A stretch of 46,424 bases of DNA. Origin: Bacteroidota bacterium. GTDB lineage: Bacteria > Bacteroidota > Ignavibacteria > UBA10030. The stretch covers positions 1-46,424 of the forward strand of contig JADGQA010000003.1 in NCBI GenBank assembly GCA_017882185.1. Direction: 5' to 3'. The translations under genes and the position numbers were made by a program. The notes below the pieces were generated by a model, which saw nothing but the letters and a program-made list of their open reading frames with translations, was not told the DNA's origin and searched no databases. This document shows, one piece after another, positions 25,822 through 34,806 of this stretch; position 1 is the first letter of the stretch; every line of letters begins with the position of its first letter.

Positions 25822-25838
25822 TTCTAACCGGAGAGGTA

Positions 25839-25890
25839 GTGACCTTGGCGTCCCGATGCAACTCGATACATTGGGAAACGCGCAACCTAT
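25839..25890 (-). pseudogene. tRNA-Arg 3'-end relic 1, interrupted by a degenerate palindrome
   Basis: GTGACCttGGCG-[TCCCGATGcaactcgataCATtGGGA]-AACGCGCAACCTA versus intact tRNA GTGACCCCGGCG-CGAATCG-AACGCGCAACCTA. Confidence 0.65.
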
Positions 25891-25969
25891 GGCATATCCC
25901 GCCCAAGAGCACCTGGATTCTGAAAACTTCAAAGTCGCTCGCACAAAACACTCGCGGGAAGTTTTCGAA

Positions 25970-26093
25970 GTGACCCCGGCGTCCCGATGCAACTCGACGC
26001 ATCGGGAAACGCGCAACCTACAGTTCCGTGACACCTTCGGTGTCACGAGAATCCTCGTCCCGACTTTCGTCGGGACGGGCCTTAGAAGGCTGT
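25970..26093 (-). pseudogene. tRNA-Arg 3'-half relic 2, interrupted by perfect palindromes
   Basis: GTGACCCCGGCG-[TCCCGATGCaactcgacGCATCGGGA]-AACGCGCAACCTACAG-[two hairpins]-CTTAGAAGGCTGT; colinear with the intact tRNA at 26102..26175. Confidence 0.75.
26027..26077. repeat. Pair of perfect hairpins inserted in the tRNA relic
   Basis: CGTGACACC-ttc-GGTGTCACG and CGTCCCGAC-tttc-GTCGGGACG. Confidence 0.85.
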
Positions 26094-26483: not shown

Positions 26484-26870
26484 CTACTCGAAATCCCCTG
26501 TGAAAGTCCAGTTGGATGCCTTTCCATTCATATCGATATCGGCGACCATCGTGTCTGTGGAATCCAACGAGGAGACGCCGGTGACCTGCAGTGTTTGGGG
26601 ATTCAGGACAGATGCGGCGTATCGACCGTTCAGGTTCGAACGGTATCCTTTGGGGAGGGCGTATCCGTCAAATTTGTAGCCGCCTCCTCCTAATGCCGGA
26701 ATTCTTCTGTGGTATCGCACAGCATTGATGGCAATGTGATGGAGGTCGTCAATCATTGCTTTCTTGTTGGCGTCGATATCATCCGCCCGAAAGAATCCCG
26801 TCCCTGTGAGAATCGCAATACCGACGATGAGCACGCTAATTGCAATGATGAGCAGCTGGCTTTGTCCCAT
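26484..26870 (-). CDS. Pilin-like protein with short N-terminus (paralog of 33367..33753)
   Basis: MGQSQLLIIAISVLIVGIAILTGTGFF...NKKAMIDDLHHIAINAVRYHRRIPALGGGGY...GKASNWTFTGDFE. Confidence 0.65.
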   Translation of the reverse strand: MGQSQLLIIAISVLIVGIAILTGTGFFRADDIDANKKAMIDDLHHIAINAVRYHRRIPALGGGGYKFDGYALPKGYRSNLNGRYAASVLNPQTLQVTGVSSLDSTDTMVADIDMNGKASNWTFTGDFE

Positions 26871-27312
26871 ACCCGGATTCTATTGTTATTGACCCTGCGT
26901 GTCCGTACCTCTGCGGTATGATACCCTTCAATGTATATGCCACAGAACCATGTTTGATCACTGTCTGAAATCATGCGAGAACAGAGGCGCTCCCTTACTT
27001 CATCAGATGGTCGAATCCCATTTATACTTCAACGTGTGCATCAAATTACCTTATTACCTCTTCCGAGGACATTAGAATTTCTCACGCGTTTTTCAAAAAC
27101 CCGCACGGGTATGTAGGGTTCGAATCTTACGATGTCGTCGACAACGGACCATTGGATTGTCGCCTACGGGAGACAAGTTGTTAGTGCTGGGCGATTTGCG
27201 CCTTGGGTGATCCTTGCTTAGGATTACAAACGCGGCAGAAAGAATTAATGGAGGCGAAATACGAAATGCACGATCCTGGGGGAAGTTGATGCCTGTTCAA
27301 AGACTCTGTCGC

Positions 27313-27351
27313 GAAAAAGAAAACCCCCACCGACTGGCGTCGACGAGGGTT
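27313..27351 (-). terminator. Rho-independent terminator
   Basis: Minus strand AACCCTCGTCGAC-gcca-GTCGGTGGGGGTT TTCTTTTT: 13-bp stem including G-U pairs, then T-tract. Confidence 0.8.
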
Positions 27352-27392
27352 CTCCTCTAGAATATTTTGCTTAACCGACTATTCCGAGTTAA

Positions 27393-27803
27393 TCAACCCG
27401 GCCCAAAGAAAAACACGTCAATGATAACCGGGCTGGTCACATCCATGAGTGTCAGAGTATATGGTTCACTAGTAAATGTTTCGAAGTTGCCGTCGACAGT
27501 AAGCAAAAAAGAAACACCCACATTGGGTATAATAAGCCACGATGCACTTTCTCCGCTTGGAACGGAAGTTGGACCATCAACTGACCCAAGACTTGGGTCA
27601 TAATTAATCGTGATCGGTATGTCATTGGTCACGAGGACATCACCGTGCGCGAGATGCGCGGGGACTGCCTCAGGTGCCACGACGATAATATGTCCGTTGT
27701 GCACTAGTGCAACTTTGTCCTTCTTATCCCCCGCGTTCGAAGAAACATATCCGAAGATGCAAAGAACAAGAAGTAGAGAAAGCAACTTAATGAAGTGTTT
27801 CAT
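27393..27803 (-). CDS. Small secreted protein with an HNGHxIxVxxxAVxAHLAHGD motif
   Basis: MKHFIKLLSLLLVLCIFGYVSSNAG signal peptide; KVALVHNGHIIVVAPEAVPAHLAHGDVL. Start corrected from the ORF track. Confidence 0.65.
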   Translation of the reverse strand: MKHFIKLLSLLLVLCIFGYVSSNAGDKKDKVALVHNGHIIVVAPEAVPAHLAHGDVLVTNDIPITINYDPSLGSVDGPTSVPSGESASWLIIPNVGVSFLLTVDGNFETFTSEPYTLTLMDVTSPVIIDVFFFGPG

Positions 27804-27909
27804 CGAAGTACTCCTTCTGTTAATGAGGCATTCCTTCTCACTCCGGGTGCGATGAGAGGGGCTTGATATAAAGATACAAAGACACTCGAACAGGAGCAAG
27901 AGAATTTGA

Positions 27910-28081
27910 TTAGTAACCCACTAAGTTGAACGCCGGTCTTCGCATTGTCATTCGCCTTGCTGATGTACAATCTATCTTCCGCGGTGCTGCCCACATATGA
28001 CTCCACCCTCGTAAGCGACAATGTATAAAGGCCGAAAACGATAGAAATGACCCCGATCAGAATTACTTTTGAACTGCTCAT
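27910..28081 (-). pseudogene. Internally deleted paralog of 28283..28873
   Basis: MSSSKVILIGVISIVFGLYTLSLTRVESYVGSTAEDRLYISKANDNAKTGVQ joined out of frame to NLVGY*, matching the N- and C-termini of the intact neighbour. Confidence 0.7.
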
Positions 28082-28282
28082 CGAAGACCGCTCACGTTAT
28101 TCATCTCTTCAAAACAAATGAAATTCCCCTTGTAATGCAACCACACAAATGTGTAGGCGAACGATATACCCAGTACCAATTCAAAAAAGTAATATTGCAC
28201 TTTCCAAAAACGAATTAGCCGCAAACTTCGCTGATGGCAACGCCATGCCTTTGGCACAATGCATAGAGGGTCTAATGCTCAT

Positions 28283-28864
28283 TTAATAACCAATCAGGTT
28301 TGACTCGTATCCCTGCAAACTTTCAAGCTGCTTCTCAGCCGCGTAGTTGATCGTCGAGTACACGGAAGTGACTGTCAGACGATACCATGGGTAGCTGATG
28401 CCGCCATAAGGGGTGTTATAAAACAGTACGTTTGCAGTCATGATAACTTCGTGCCCTTGAAAGGCTGCAGGTTCACTTGGAGCTCTGTAATACCCGTGTG
28501 AAACTATCTTCAGAGTATAGGTCTTACCGTCCCAATACGTCCACGGTAGTATCGGGCTTAGAGGATAAGGCAATACGTACACTGTATCGATGAACATGTC
28601 TACTGCAGGTGCGGGATCAATAAGATTAAAGGTCCCTGTTTTTGGAAGATTAGTCACATTCGTGTAGGCGCCCAGGTCATTGCCGCGCGACCAAATATTC
28701 AAAATCCACTGAACGCCAGCTTTTGCATTATCGGATGCCCTGGTTATGTAAGACGCAACCTCGGCGGTATTTCCAACGTATCCGTTCACCCTATAGAGCG
28801 AAAGTGAGTACAGACCAAATACTACAGAAATGGCTCCGACAAGAATGACTTTAGAGCTACCCAT
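28283..28864 (-). CDS. Pilin-like/minor pseudopilin-like protein with N-terminal hydrophobic helix
   Basis: MGSSKVILVGAISVVFGLYSLSLYRVNGYVGNTAEVASYITRASDNAKAGVQ... Confidence 0.55.
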   Translation of the reverse strand: MGSSKVILVGAISVVFGLYSLSLYRVNGYVGNTAEVASYITRASDNAKAGVQWILNIWSRGNDLGAYTNVTNLPKTGTFNLIDPAPAVDMFIDTVYVLPYPLSPILPWTYWDGKTYTLKIVSHGYYRAPSEPAAFQGHEVIMTANVLFYNTPYGGISYPWYRLTVTSVYSTINYAAEKQLESLQGYESNLIGY

Positions 28865-28955
28865 CAAACACATCCCTTGGAAGATTTGTAAACAAAGAAA
28901 ACCAATTTCTCTTCATAATGCAACTGCACAAGTATGTCGTGATTGCTGGGCAGGA

Positions 28956-29525
28956 TCAATTGATGTTGGGCGGGAAAAATCGATATGTCCATTGCGCAGA
29001 GGGATACAGGCCGTTCACTTTGTCACCCGTTGCCATCACCAGGTAAACAGAGAATGACTTGATGTTGGCATTGATCAACGTCGAGGCGCCGGTCGAGTCG
29101 TAGTAGGTGAATTTCAGTGAATCAACACCATTTGCAAACGATTTGGGGGGCGCGAGTCCAGCACCAACTATTCCTGCTGCTCTATACAACTTTCGATCAC
29201 GAGGATTTGGCGTGGCGGAAAGATCGGAAGTGCTACCTGCGAAATACTTGACCCAGGTTTTACTCCCACTCGATGGATCCACATAGCTCACTTCAATTAT
29301 ATCCTGGGATGCAGACGTAAAGTAAGGCTTACTTGCCACCTGGTATCCGACCAAATTAAAGTCATTGCTGATGACCCGGGCAACTGTGGTGATCAAACTG
29401 AACATATTTGCCTGCGCTGTTTTCTCGCCGAGCTTGCCTTGAAGAGCGATGGTCATGTTAAGAATCGCTATGACGATTGCAGCGCGAAGCGTCAGAGATG
29501 CTACAATATCAATAATAGAACTCAC
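28956..29525 (-). CDS. Pilin-like/minor pseudopilin-like protein
   Basis: MSSIIDIVASLTLRAAIVIAILNMTIALQGKLGEKTAQANMFSLITTVARVISNDFNLVGYQV; N-terminal helix plus soluble domain. Confidence 0.5.
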   Translation of the reverse strand: MSSIIDIVASLTLRAAIVIAILNMTIALQGKLGEKTAQANMFSLITTVARVISNDFNLVGYQVASKPYFTSASQDIIEVSYVDPSSGSKTWVKYFAGSTSDLSATPNPRDRKLYRAAGIVGAGLAPPKSFANGVDSLKFTYYDSTGASTLINANIKSFSVYLVMATGDKVNGLYPSAQWTYRFFPPNIN

Positions 29526-29574
29526 AGGTTACACATGCTGATTCATGAATGCTGATTGCCAAAAACAACCTTGC

Positions 29575-30129
29575 TTACCTTGTCGAGCAACAAACAATTG
29601 AATAAAGTTTCAACCACTTGTTGGTTAGCCACTTGTCGTTCGTTACCCAGACCTCAATCCTTTTTGTCCACGACCTATCGGCGGTAATGGTAACGCTAAG
29701 AGGATTAGGAGGAATCGTCATCAGGACATAGTATACTACAACCGAGTCTCGAAATCGGCCAAGTCCATTCGTTGAATCAGTGAGCCGAGTGTAGTGATTG
29801 TAGTCATCAACATCATTGTATTTTAAAATCGAATTAAAAGGGGATTGGTCTGGTAAAGTAATCGTTTCTTCTGGTCCGAGTGATCCCGGAGCCGTAAACG
29901 AATTCACGAGGTTCTGGCTTGAACTTGACCAGGGGGGATTGTAGAGCTGATCGTATTTCTTCGTCACTATCTCAGCCATCAGCGACTGGCCAAGATCGTT
30001 GGCAGTCTTGTATGCCGTGGCTGTAAGCACTTGTTCGTCCGCATTGATCATGACACGATAGGCATTCATGAACATGACGACAAGCAACACGAAAAACGCC
30101 ATCGTCAGCATCGTTTGTCCGAGACCCAT
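29575..30129 (-). CDS. Pilin-like/minor pseudopilin-like protein
   Basis: MGLGQTMLTMAFFVLLVVMFMNAYRVMINADEQVLTATAYKTANDLGQSLMAEI; same layout and operon. Confidence 0.5.
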   Translation of the reverse strand: MGLGQTMLTMAFFVLLVVMFMNAYRVMINADEQVLTATAYKTANDLGQSLMAEIVTKKYDQLYNPPWSSSSQNLVNSFTAPGSLGPEETITLPDQSPFNSILKYNDVDDYNHYTRLTDSTNGLGRFRDSVVVYYVLMTIPPNPLSVTITADRSWTKRIEVWVTNDKWLTNKWLKLYSIVCCSTR

Positions 30130-30173
30130 CTCAATACTTATCTCTTGTGCAGAAATGTGACGCGCTCAATCGC

Positions 30174-31976
30174 TCAATCATCCTCGACCGTTGCGCTTGC
30201 CACTTCTTCAAGGCTGGTAATGCCCTTCATCATGAGCTCCAACGCCGTCTGACGGAGTGTCCTCATCCCGTGCTTCATCGCTGCTTCGCGGATTGCATCT
30301 TCGTCGATCGAAGTCTCGGACTCGAGAATAATCTTCCGAATGTCCTTGGTAAACGACAATGCTTCGTGTATCGCCGTTCGACCTTTGTAGCCTTTAATGC
30401 AGTTGGGACAACCGACCGCCCGGTAGATCTTCGTCGTTTCTATTTCAATCGGCGTCATCCCAAGGCGAGCGAGCGCCTCACGGTCAGGGTCGATGACCGG
30501 CGCTTTGCAGCGTGGGCAGAGTTTTCTCATGAGACGCTGGGCAATCACCACGTGAACGGTATACGCCAGGAGAAACGGCTCGACACCCATCTTGAATAGT
30601 CGCGATACAGCACTCGGCGCATCGTTCGTGTGGAGTGTGGACAGCGTCATATGGCCTGTATTTGCAAGCTTCACGGCAATATCGGCAGTGATCTTGTCGC
30701 GTATTTCTCCCACCATGATGATGTCGGGGTCGTGGCGCAGGATCGCCCTCAATGCCCCTTCAAAATCCAATTTCGGACTCAACTTTACCTGGCGCGCTCC
30801 TTCGATAAAATACTCAACGGGATCCTCCACCGTCAGCACGTTCAAGGCAGGATCCATGATCGTCTTCAGAGCCGCTACGAGCGTCGTACTTTTGCCGCTT
30901 CCTGTCGGCCCCGTAACAATGACGATGCCGTACGGTTTCTTGATCGCGCGCAGGAATGCCTTTTCTGCAAACGGTTCAAACCCCAGCTCGCTGAGTTGCA
31001 TCCCGACCGTCGTTTCCTTCAGGATTCGAATTACGATCGATTCGAATTTGCTTTTCATTTCCTTTCCGACAACCGGAATGACGGAAACTCTGAACCGAAC
31101 GGTCTTGCGGTCGATCAGAAGCTGCGCGTAGCCGTCCTGTGCTCGCGTTCGCTCAAATCGATCGACGCCCAGCGCACGATCCTTCACCACCGCCGCAACA
31201 GCTTCCGCTCGAACGTCGCTGTGGGTATACCAGAGCGTCAGCTTGCCGTCGATGCGGAAATGGAATTGCGTCACCCTTTCCGCAACAGGAATGACGTGTA
31301 TATCGCTTGCACCGATGCGGACGGCATCCGCAAGAATATTGTTCGCGAGCTCCACCAGCCCGCTCTTGTTGATTTCTTCTTCGATCGCCTGCTCGAAGAG
31401 CTCGTCGTCCTGTTGCTGTTGTTCCTCGACTCCTTCGGCATGCAGATGCTGTTCGTGGGATTTGTACGTCGACCGCGAAATGTTGACACGCTTCCAAAGC
31501 TCATCCCAGTCGGATAATGGAACATAATAAAGCTCGAACTTGGGGTACAGGAACCCCCTTGCAATATAGAAGACTTCGGGGTTGGTCGGATCGGGCGTTA
31601 CGACGAGCAAGCGATTGGGCTTTTCGGGATCGACAGAGTATGGCAGCACCTGATTTTCGATGGCCATTTCACGGATCGCCTCGGGAAGCGCAGCGAGCTC
31701 CTTGCGCATGAATGCAAGTTGTGTTTCCTCGATCTGCCCGGGGTTGACATCAAGCGTCTTGAAAGCATAGTAGTCCACCACTTCCTTGTAGACTCGATCC
31801 CGGTTGGCACGAAAATCATTGACAAGCACCTGGGCCAGCTTCCGGCGGTTCTTCCGGTCCTCTTTGCTCATCACATCGAGCGCTGAGAGAAGCGTCTCGG
31901 GCGAAACAATCCCCTTCTCGACAAGGATGTCGCCGAGTTCGCGTTTGGCGGGTCGTATTTGCTTGGCTTCTGGCAT
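30174..31976 (-). CDS. GspE/PilB-family secretion/pilus assembly ATPase
   Basis: Walker A GPTGSGKSTTL, HDPDIIMVGEIRD, GHMTLSTLHTNDAPSAVSRL, CPRCKAP...CPNC zinc motif, N-terminal LGDILVEKGIVSPETL domain. Confidence 0.95.
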   Translation of the reverse strand: MPEAKQIRPAKRELGDILVEKGIVSPETLLSALDVMSKEDRKNRRKLAQVLVNDFRANRDRVYKEVVDYYAFKTLDVNPGQIEETQLAFMRKELAALPEAIREMAIENQVLPYSVDPEKPNRLLVVTPDPTNPEVFYIARGFLYPKFELYYVPLSDWDELWKRVNISRSTYKSHEQHLHAEGVEEQQQQDDELFEQAIEEEINKSGLVELANNILADAVRIGASDIHVIPVAERVTQFHFRIDGKLTLWYTHSDVRAEAVAAVVKDRALGVDRFERTRAQDGYAQLLIDRKTVRFRVSVIPVVGKEMKSKFESIVIRILKETTVGMQLSELGFEPFAEKAFLRAIKKPYGIVIVTGPTGSGKSTTLVAALKTIMDPALNVLTVEDPVEYFIEGARQVKLSPKLDFEGALRAILRHDPDIIMVGEIRDKITADIAVKLANTGHMTLSTLHTNDAPSAVSRLFKMGVEPFLLAYTVHVVIAQRLMRKLCPRCKAPVIDPDREALARLGMTPIEIETTKIYRAVGCPNCIKGYKGRTAIHEALSFTKDIRKIILESETSIDEDAIREAAMKHGMRTLRQTALELMMKGITSLEEVASATVEDD

Positions 31977-32007
31977 TGTTAGTTCGTGGAATCCTACTGC
32001 TGACGCT

Positions 32008-33360
32008 TTACTGGCCCATGGTGTCCATACGTACCGAGGACATCTCCGTCGACAAGTAGGTGAGGAACACCATAGCGATCATGATAAGAATCGAAATACT
32101 GACCTCGATGACGCTCGTGAGGTTCTTCAATGCGTAGTGATTTTCCGTTTGATAGAATTCAGCGAGCTGATTTGCCGTCGCTTTGACGTCTCCTGTTTCG
32201 GCAGCCGTCCTAAACCGTGATACGATCATTTCCGGGAAGAAATCCGTCGCTTCCAGGGCGCGCGGAAGTTCTGTTCCGAATTTCAGCATCATCGGGATCG
32301 TCACCGTGCGTATCTGCCTCGCGAGATAAATGTTGCCGCTCGAGTCTCCGGCTATTTGAATCGCATCGATGTTCTCACCCGACGTCGTGTACATGATCCC
32401 AAGGACATTGCAGAATATCTCGATGCTGGTATTCCTCAAGATGTTCCCGACGTACGGGACTTTGATGAGGTAGCGATGAAGGTTGTACTTTCCTTCCGCG
32501 CTGAGAATATAAGCGTAGAACCCGCCCGTGAGTCCGGCAATTGTCAGGAGAAGAATGATATAATTGTCCTTAACAAACTGGCTCACTTCCATGGTCAATG
32601 CCGTGAGCGGCGGTATTTCCGTGAGAAGCGGACCCATAGTCTGAACCATCTTTGGCAGCAAGAACAGCGCATAAAAACCAATAGCCCCGATGAGCGTCAG
32701 CGACGTCACGGCAGGGAGCAGAAGTGAACTCGTCAGCCCTTTCTTGAATTCAGCCTGACGTTCGACGAGCGACGAGACACTCTTGAAAATTGAGACCATG
32801 TCTCCGCTCTTCGAAGCGATGCCGAGCATGAGAGCATTGTGTTCTCCAAAGACTCTCCCCTGCCGGATGAACGCCTCCCGAGAATCGACGCCATTTCTGA
32901 GGTCATTCAGAATGTCCTTGATCGCTCCCCGAAGATACCGATTCTTGACATTGGTCGACATGATCTGGAGCACTTCCGCGTAAGCAATTTTTTGCTCAAG
33001 GAGCCGGGCACTTGTTCCCACGAAGCTGACAATTTCATTGATGGGGGCGCGTCCCTTGAAGTCAAATACCCTCCGAACAGACTGCACATCGAACCGGAGG
33101 CTCTCCAGCGCCCTGACAACCTCATCGCGAGAATAGGCGTTTTGGAAGCCATCGACATATCTCGTCCCGCGCTTAACCCTGTACACGTAAGTCTTCTTCT
33201 TGTGCACGCCGAGAAGACTGCCCCCACGCGACTTCGTTTGTTGCTTTGCTCTTTTTCTCGCTTCCCCGCGCGTGGAAGCCATCAGAAAGTACTGGATCGC
33301 CTTTCCGGTTTTGTCACGCGCATCAATTCTAAATTCTGATTGCTTGGTTCCTGCGGCCAT
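32008..33360 (-). CDS. GspF/PilC-family inner membrane platform protein
   Basis: AEVLQIMSTNVKNRYLRGAIKDILNDLRNGVDSREAF...GIASKSGDM...SLVERQAEFKKGLTSSLLLPAVTSL; duplicated GspF layout. Confidence 0.92.
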   Translation of the reverse strand: MAAGTKQSEFRIDARDKTGKAIQYFLMASTRGEARKRAKQQTKSRGGSLLGVHKKKTYVYRVKRGTRYVDGFQNAYSRDEVVRALESLRFDVQSVRRVFDFKGRAPINEIVSFVGTSARLLEQKIAYAEVLQIMSTNVKNRYLRGAIKDILNDLRNGVDSREAFIRQGRVFGEHNALMLGIASKSGDMVSIFKSVSSLVERQAEFKKGLTSSLLLPAVTSLTLIGAIGFYALFLLPKMVQTMGPLLTEIPPLTALTMEVSQFVKDNYIILLLTIAGLTGGFYAYILSAEGKYNLHRYLIKVPYVGNILRNTSIEIFCNVLGIMYTTSGENIDAIQIAGDSSGNIYLARQIRTVTIPMMLKFGTELPRALEATDFFPEMIVSRFRTAAETGDVKATANQLAEFYQTENHYALKNLTSVIEVSISILIMIAMVFLTYLSTEMSSVRMDTMGQ

Positions 33361-33366
33361 AGGTTC

Positions 33367-33753
33367 CTACTTAAAATCTCCGGTAAAAGTCCAATTGGAT
33401 GCCTTTCCGTACGTGTCAATTTGTGCGACCACCGTGTTGTTCGTATCCCTTGCAGAGACTCCTGCAATTTGCAGCACGGCCTTGCTTACTGGATTGACAG
33501 AATATTTTCCGTTCAAATTCGACCGAAAGCCGCTCGGGAGCGCATATCCCAGGTAGCTGTATCCTCCTCCACCGAGCGCTCCGATTCTCCGATAGTATCG
33601 TGTCGCATTCATAGCAATATGATTGACGTCATTGATCATCGCCTTCTTGTTTGCCTCAATCTCGTCATCCGAGAAAAACCCCGTTCCCGCCAGGATCGAA
33701 ATGCCGATGATGAGGATACTGATTGCAATGATAAGAATCTGACTTTGTCCCAT
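33367..33753 (-). CDS. Pilin-like protein with short N-terminus (paralog of 26484..26870)
   Basis: MGQSQILIIAISILIIGISILAGTGFFSDDEIEANKKAMINDVNHIAMNATRYYRRIGALGGGGY...GKASNWTFTGDFK. Confidence 0.65.
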   Translation of the reverse strand: MGQSQILIIAISILIIGISILAGTGFFSDDEIEANKKAMINDVNHIAMNATRYYRRIGALGGGGYSYLGYALPSGFRSNLNGKYSVNPVSKAVLQIAGVSARDTNNTVVAQIDTYGKASNWTFTGDFK

Positions 33754-34158: not shown

Positions 34159-34806
34159 TTAGATTTCTCCGCGGACGGACTTGCCAATTACTTCTGCCTT
34201 TGAGTTTACGTGGAGCTTTCTGTAGACATGCTTGATGTGGAATCGGACAGTGTCGATGGAAATGCCAAGCTTGCCGGCAATCATTTTATAGCTGAGACCC
34301 TCGACAAGACCGTCAACAACCTGGCGCTCTTTGATGGTAAGGGCCTGTCCGACCTTCGTTACCTTCTCCGAGCTGAAATACTTGATGACTTTCTTTGCAA
34401 TCTCGGGCGACATCGGGGCTCCACCGGAGTACAGCAACATGACGGCATCTTTGATCTCCGACAAATTGGAACCCTTGAGAAGATAGCCGGCAGCTCCGGC
34501 TCGCAAGGAATCAAACACCAATTCCCAGTCCGCATACGAGGTGAAGACGATGAATTCCATCGTCGGGAATTTTTCTTTAAGATAACTAATGCCGCTAATA
34601 CCGGAAAGGCCGGGAAGCTTTATGTCGACTATGACGACGTCGGGCGTTGCCTCATCCCTCAGTTGCTCAAGGAACGATTCCACGGAGTCCGCAACGATTC
34701 CGCATTCGAACTCTGGCTGCTTTTTCAGGAATGATTTGACGGATGATCGAACCGAATTTTCATCCTCGATAACTCCGATATTGATTTTTTTGCTGGAGGC
34801 CTTCAT
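34159..34806 (-). CDS. NarL/LuxR-family response regulator
   Basis: VIVDIKLPGLSGISGI, GYLLKGSNLSEI, LTIKERQVVDGLVEGLSYKMIAGKLGISIDTVRFHIKHVYRKL. Confidence 0.93.
   Translation of the reverse strand: MKASSKKINIGVIEDENSVRSSVKSFLKKQPEFECGIVADSVESFLEQLRDEATPDVVIVDIKLPGLSGISGISYLKEKFPTMEFIVFTSYADWELVFDSLRAGAAGYLLKGSNLSEIKDAVMLLYSGGAPMSPEIAKKVIKYFSSEKVTKVGQALTIKERQVVDGLVEGLSYKMIAGKLGISIDTVRFHIKHVYRKLHVNSKAEVIGKSVRGEI

Follow-up and report, generated by a model that had tools for sequence, protein, structure and literature searches.

The locus analyzed here, a 46,424-nucleotide contig of a Bacteroidota bacterium from the Ignavibacteria (the window; contig C302 of a 3.64-Mb genome that is assembled in 352 contigs and is 96.5% complete), raises the question of whether type IV pili can be assembled from subunits made without a leader peptide and without a prepilin peptidase. 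Its minus strand carries, at positions 26484-33753, a cassette composed of a GspF/PilC platform protein and a GspE/PilB ATPase, together with five small proteins that are intact and a truncated copy of one of them. We consider it probable that this cassette belongs to a machine resembling type IVa pili (T4aP), that its pilins are leaderless and need no prepilin peptidase, and that the cassette represents a second, paralogous extension module sharing one envelope complex. A large branch of the Bacteroidota appears to build type IV pili in this way, from near-finished subunits and with neither leader nor prepilin peptidase. Because the cassette is kept in dozens of genomes, a chance arrangement is excluded. 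An earlier note, made from the sequence of the window, had described one GspE, one GspF and at least five small proteins, and the coordinates and the T2SSF and T2SSE matches obtained here agree with its placement of the genes and their start sequences. The gene order along the minus strand is q128a, GspF, GspE, p184, p189, p196, the truncated p196 copy, an unrelated exported-looking open reading frame and q128b, with the following features.

33367..33753, minus strand: q128a, major-pilin-like (MGQSQILIIAISILIIG...), family c3 (99 distinct members); pilin fold predicted by AlphaFold (AF2), predicted local distance difference test (pLDDT) 88
32008..33360, minus strand: PilC/GspF platform protein, paralogue set B; T2SSF (PF00482) matched twice, E 4e-24
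30174..31976, minus strand: PilB/GspE extension ATPase, set B; T2SSE (PF00437), E 1e-105
29575..30129, minus strand: p184, minor-pilin-like (MGLGQTMLTMAFF...), family c4; kept in 71 loci
28956..29525, minus strand: p189, minor-pilin-like, (V/M)SSIIDIVASL..., family c5, GTG start; profile match to Thermus pilin TTHA1219
28283..28864, minus strand: p196, minor-pilin-like (MGSSKVILVGAIS...), family c13; family found in 40 loci
27800..28081, minus strand: tandem duplicate of p196, truncated at 93 codons; alignable with p196 at the nucleotide level over its 5' portion and the DNA upstream of it
26484..26870, minus strand: q128b, another pilin of family c3, with 66% identity to q128a; a stop lies in frame 3 codons upstream

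Absence of a leader and of a prepilin peptidase

Each frame was traced upstream as far as the preceding stop, regardless of the chosen start, and ATG, GTG and TTG were counted as possible starts. No such codon preceded the conserved Met in 96 of the 99 distinct c3 members, and a stop stood fewer than 6 codons upstream in 74 of them. Upstream in-frame starts were likewise absent from 55/57 distinct members of c4, 50/56 of c5 and 31/32 of c13, in which p196 itself was the exception. Within the window, in-frame stops lay 1 to 16 codons upstream of the small genes (5 codons for q128a), and alternative starts were present for p196 only, 1 and 3 codons upstream. Distant Bacteroidota showed the identical MGQQQ start, mostly within the same operon. 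Read in this way, the frames indicate that a leader is not encodable in c3-type pilin genes. Mis-assignment of start codons was rejected, since upstream in-frame starts were absent in nearly all family members and the MGQQQ start recurs in the distant Bacteroidota. The c3 proteins therefore lack the class III signal peptide of type IV filaments, a leader ending in Gly or Ala, and they also lack the leader of archaeal class III pilins, which is cleaved by an A24 peptidase of the PibD/EppA type. A resemblance to archaeal class III signals, suggested in the earlier note, could not be upheld because there is no leader at all.

Neither a prepilin peptidase nor a secretin was found within the window, as had been reported before. 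Elsewhere in the same genome a secretin was present; Peptidase_A24 was not found by family search, and a query with the whole PilD protein was also without a match, so that the prepilin peptidase expected of type IV filaments is missing from this genome. Among 41 related genomes, Peptidase_A24 occurred in three, all of which hold an additional, canonical T2SSF gene. In two of them (G004 and G031) the peptidase lies inside the same gene set as the canonical T2SSF, and in G004 it is accompanied by A24_N, leader-bearing N_methyl pseudopilins and a separate secretin. The earlier note had named canonical, PilD-cleaved subunits in relatives as one finding that would overturn it; canonical pseudopilins with PilD do occur in a few relatives, as a separate third system.

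The same pattern was seen in wider samples. Among the 293 genomes of the class sample, c3 (MGQQQLLLIILGVIIVG...) was the commonest small-protein family, present in 161 genomes, nearly all of them at least 90% complete; A24 (PF01478) was detected in 14 genomes, c3 and A24 occurred together in 14, and c3 occurred without A24 in 147 of the 161. In the phylum sample (297 genomes), c3 was found in 102 genomes, A24 in 40 and both in 11. Across the two samples, 13 single-contig genomes had c3 and no A24, and the search tool detected A24 in 12 of 14 controls. These counts bear on the possibility that the pili are ordinary ones, their peptidase missed through incomplete genomes and their start codons mis-assigned. 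The fragmented state of the window genome is in keeping with this explanation, but incomplete data as the reason for the absent peptidase were rejected on the 13 single-contig genomes, and we take these, the controls and the closed c3 frames to refute ordinary pili, to which we give almost no credence.

A vestigial leader of two to four residues (MG before QQQ, MNLG before QT), cut after Gly by a non-A24 peptidase, would mean that maturation is still needed. The invariant Gly2 in c3 alignments and a conserved Gly before Gln in c4 are consistent with such a leader. However, c5 has no Gly at the matching place, its Asp would already stand at position 5 after removal of Met in 41/56 members, and no recurrent peptidase-like gene adjoined the pilins in the gene maps. 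We therefore regard a vestigial leader as unlikely.

Pilin-like features of the small proteins

The AlphaFold model of q128a comprised a helix at residues 3-55 and a four-stranded head, the long N-terminal helix and beta head of a predicted pilin fold, and its top match in the PDB was the Neisseria minor pilin PilV (probability 0.97, E 0.09). The fold check that the earlier note had proposed turned out favorably for q128a; for c5, a Foldseek search with the model found no pilin. The ComP_DUS pilin model matched 22 of 72 c3 members (best E 9e-5), below the Pfam cut-off as far as seen and with no match to q128a itself, and the c3 profile matched Geobacter PilA-N (geopilin) with E values of 0.014-0.04; by that alignment, some three additional residues would stand ahead of mature position 1. 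The c3 helix, which is nearly uncharged, is 84% conserved compared to 49% for the head, and one to four tandem c3 copies lie directly ahead of PilC.

For c5, the profile matched the Thermus pilin TTHA1219 (E 0.002-0.006), with Asp6 aligned to the Glu of the LLE motif, which is the Glu5 position. In a profile comparison with canonical pseudopilins the match was weak (probability 17%, P 0.0014), with the Asp again falling on the Glu. This Asp is kept in 56/56 c5 members, at position 6 in 41, position 8 in 14 and position 5 in 1. The 41 members with position 6 indicate that most c5 proteins start at mature position 1 after Met removal. The K-like families c13 and c14 have no acid at position 5 and have Lys or Arg near the start. 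By its place, p184 would be PilI/GspI-like, and p196, which has no acidic residue at position 5, would be PilK-like; p189 is a candidate PilJ/PilW-like minor pilin. One large K-like minor pilin candidate in a relative (L059:14150-15334) showed a sub-threshold likeness to DUF4900 (E 8e-5).

The small proteins might alternatively be accessory components, anchored in the membrane, that serve a secretion machine, with the true pilins encoded elsewhere. In keeping with this, no pilin model, N_methyl included, was matched above the cut-off by any of the small proteins of the window, and the c3 and c4 profiles gave no match by hhalign to three or four canonical pseudopilins. The c4 profile also retrieved nothing relevant from the PDB. 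Against the accessory-protein possibility stand the predicted pilin fold with PilV as its top match, the tandem copies directly before PilC, and an N-terminal helix that is conserved while the head diverges, and we judge it to be very unlikely. The results support the earlier view that the small proteins are pilin-like and form a distinct subunit family without a class III leader.

Two paralogous sets and the envelope complex

The synteny comparison that had been suggested for the cassette showed it to be conserved: relatives of the window PilC were present in 38 of the 41 related genomes. Almost all of these relatives fall into two paralogous sets, set A being a full pilus operon and set B the window type. 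The window PilC is 54-62% identical to set B relatives and 37-41% identical to those of set A. Named records with PilC relatives include Ignavibacteria, Ignavibacteriales, Kryptonia and Calditrichota, among them Candidatus Kryptonium thompsonii and Candidatus Chrysopegis kryptomonas. In the PilC tree, which was rooted at the midpoint for drawing only, very long branches parted both sets from the canonical GspF proteins of this phylum. The order in set A is one to four c3 genes, PilC, PilB, c4, c5, a c14/c21 gene of 340-410 residues, a second ATPase, c6 (about 520 residues), c7 (about 296 residues) and the secretin; in some set A loci c4, c5 and c14/c21 are missing or lie elsewhere. In one single-contig genome (G171, L178:9943-11006), the PilC gene is split into several frames, by pseudogene formation or sequencing error, and c3, PilT, c6, c7 and the secretin look intact.

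The extension ATPase and platform protein that T4aP require are both present in the window. GspE has a Walker A motif (356) and a tetracysteine CxxC...CxxC motif (487, 523), and its top NCBIfam match was type_IV_pilB (E 4e-132), below the PilB equivalog cut-off. The earlier note's suggestion of a minimal machine was not supported by a search of the rest of the genome, because a secretin, PilT, a PilO-like protein and a PilM-PilN-like fusion are encoded elsewhere. Contig C289 carries a run of PilB, second ATPase, c6, c7 and secretin, and contig C182 carries a set A PilC interrupted by the contig edge. The second ATPase just reached the PilT family cut-off (TIGR01420, 319.3 bits versus 319.1) and is counted as PilT. 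The secretin (E 6e-22) had PilQ as its best family, well below the PilQ cut-off. In its second half the c6 profile matched Myxococcus PilN (E 0.003), and c6 is apparently a PilM-PilN-like fusion in which PilM would, by position, be the first half. The PilO-like protein c7 gave weak GspM matches only (XpsM E 0.003), so that PilM and PilO are assigned by position and weak matches. On this basis we count a secretin and PilMNO as present in the window genome.

Seven relatives (G005, G007, G008, G012, G014, G028 and G033) have both PilC sets, yet each has one secretin and one PilM-N-like gene, the latter split over two contigs in G007; the window genome likewise has one of each. Two PilC sets with a single secretin and PilM-N suggest that one envelope complex receives different pilins from set B. 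The set B loci encode a PilB, a PilC and pilins of their own, and neither PilT nor a secretin lies close by, features which are also compatible with leaderless pilins serving a separate machine that has an export route to itself, or a pseudopilus confined to the periplasm. This alternative is possible but rather unlikely in our view, given the single secretin and PilM-N-like gene in the seven relatives.

Set B cassettes of relatives adjoin histidine kinases and response regulators, and set B may therefore be a regulated alternative filament. The window has a corresponding gene just upstream of the cassette, which could be its regulator.

34159..34806, minus strand: response regulator, with receiver and helix-turn-helix domains by sequence

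Two further genes were observed beside set B PilC. A DUF6901 protein (E 4e-87; L041:3621-4379 and relatives) recurs just upstream of it and is possibly linked to set B in function, and in one relative a HerA/DUF87-type ATPase gene (L048:11120-12715) adjoins PilC.

Comparison with known systems and proposed assembly

The machine shares with T4aP a PilB-like ATPase, PilC, a PilT family ATPase just over the NCBIfam cut-off, PilM-N-like and PilO-like proteins, a PilQ-like secretin, and major and minor pilins. It differs in having no class III leader, no prepilin peptidase and no Glu5 in the major pilin, in pilins to which pilin models are blind, and in an apparent fusion of PilM and PilN. With the type II secretion system (T2SS) it shares GspE, GspF, a GspL-like fusion, a GspM-like protein (the XpsM match above) and a secretin, whereas PilT is present, the secretin matches PilQ best, no GspG or GspC family was matched, and the canonical T2SS found in this phylum is encoded by a gene set apart from this one. 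Under curated T2SS criteria (GspG, GspC and GspE/GspF/GspD), no cut-off was reached by the proteins tested. Pilins of the mannose-sensitive hemagglutinin (MSHA) pili have leaders. As here, some MSHA loci are known to contain no gene for a prepilin peptidase (PMC6668835); in MSH genomes, however, a peptidase is systematically encoded by another system, from which MSH loci may borrow it (PMC6668835), whereas 147 of the 161 c3-bearing genomes of the class sample have no peptidase at all.

A further comparison is offered by Melioribacter roseus, another member of the Ignavibacteria, in whose genome pilT, pilQ, pilB and pilC were reported, pilA and pilD were not found and pilus production was doubted (PMC3534657). 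The comparison was made through this published account. Leaderless pilins were not recognized by its authors (PMC3534657), and their failure to find pilA and pilD fits the leaderless-pilin reading. Reviews regard the leader and its peptidase both as a requirement of type IV filaments and as part of their definition (PMC4471445, PMC10191384). The present system, which would work like T4aP, fails strict membership because it has neither a class III signal peptide nor a prepilin peptidase. No description of leaderless pilins or of such a system was found in the open-access literature; subscription papers and preprints were outside the scope of that search.

We propose that translation yields subunits of the form MG(Q)QQ-hydrophobic helix, already starting at the mature end or close to it, and that methionine aminopeptidase probably takes off the initiator Met where residue 2 permits. 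The resulting N-terminus would lie at or within about three residues of mature position 1, and a pilin already at or near its mature N-terminus would not need a prepilin peptidase. PilB (30174-31976), acting on PilC (32008-33360), would add membrane-inserted subunits to the filament base, with p184, p189 and p196 as a putative priming tip complex and q128a and q128b as shaft subunits. The filament would exit through the PilM-N/PilO-like/secretin complex, encoded once and common to the set A motor and PilT, and surface pili capable of retraction would be expected. In canonical pilins, Glu5 pairs with the N-terminal amine of its neighbor, and the tip subunit is without Glu5 (PMC10191384). In the proposed filament, c5 would retain the acid at position 5, the K-like c13/c14, with Lys or Arg close to the start, would be without it, and in the shaft subunit c3 a polar GQQQ cap would replace the pair of Glu5 and N-terminal amine.

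Several observations weigh against this proposal. By the positive-inside rule, prepilin leaders retain the N-terminus inside before they are cleaved (PMC10191384), and without a basic leader that rule does not explain the N-in topology that pilins need. In c4, residue 2 is often Asn, which normally prevents the removal of Met; c3 lacks a counterpart of Glu5; the c3 and c4 comparisons with pseudopilins and the Foldseek search with c5, described above, were negative; and the filament itself is a prediction from genes and models. We nevertheless lean, by somewhat better than even chances, toward the broader conclusion that prepilin maturation has been given up throughout one branch of the type IV filaments, in which every pilin is translated at or near the mature N-terminus, and that neither leader cleavage by A24, a step regarded as universal, nor the Glu5 contact of the major pilin is essential to filament assembly, their roles having been taken over by the GQQQ cap. 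If true, a lineage without leader or peptidase would separate the needs for maturation in membrane topology, toxicity control and assembly.

Minor observations were made at the distal end of the cassette. The truncated p196 copy, whose frame runs on into unrelated sequence, is probably decaying. The exported-looking small open reading frame between this copy and q128b (MKHFIKLLSLLLVLC..., 27393-27899), to which no family was matched, is possibly a lipoprotein. The gene-poor stretch adjoining q128b contains a 52-nucleotide direct repeat, 90% identical and with a spacing of 131, at 25838-26020.
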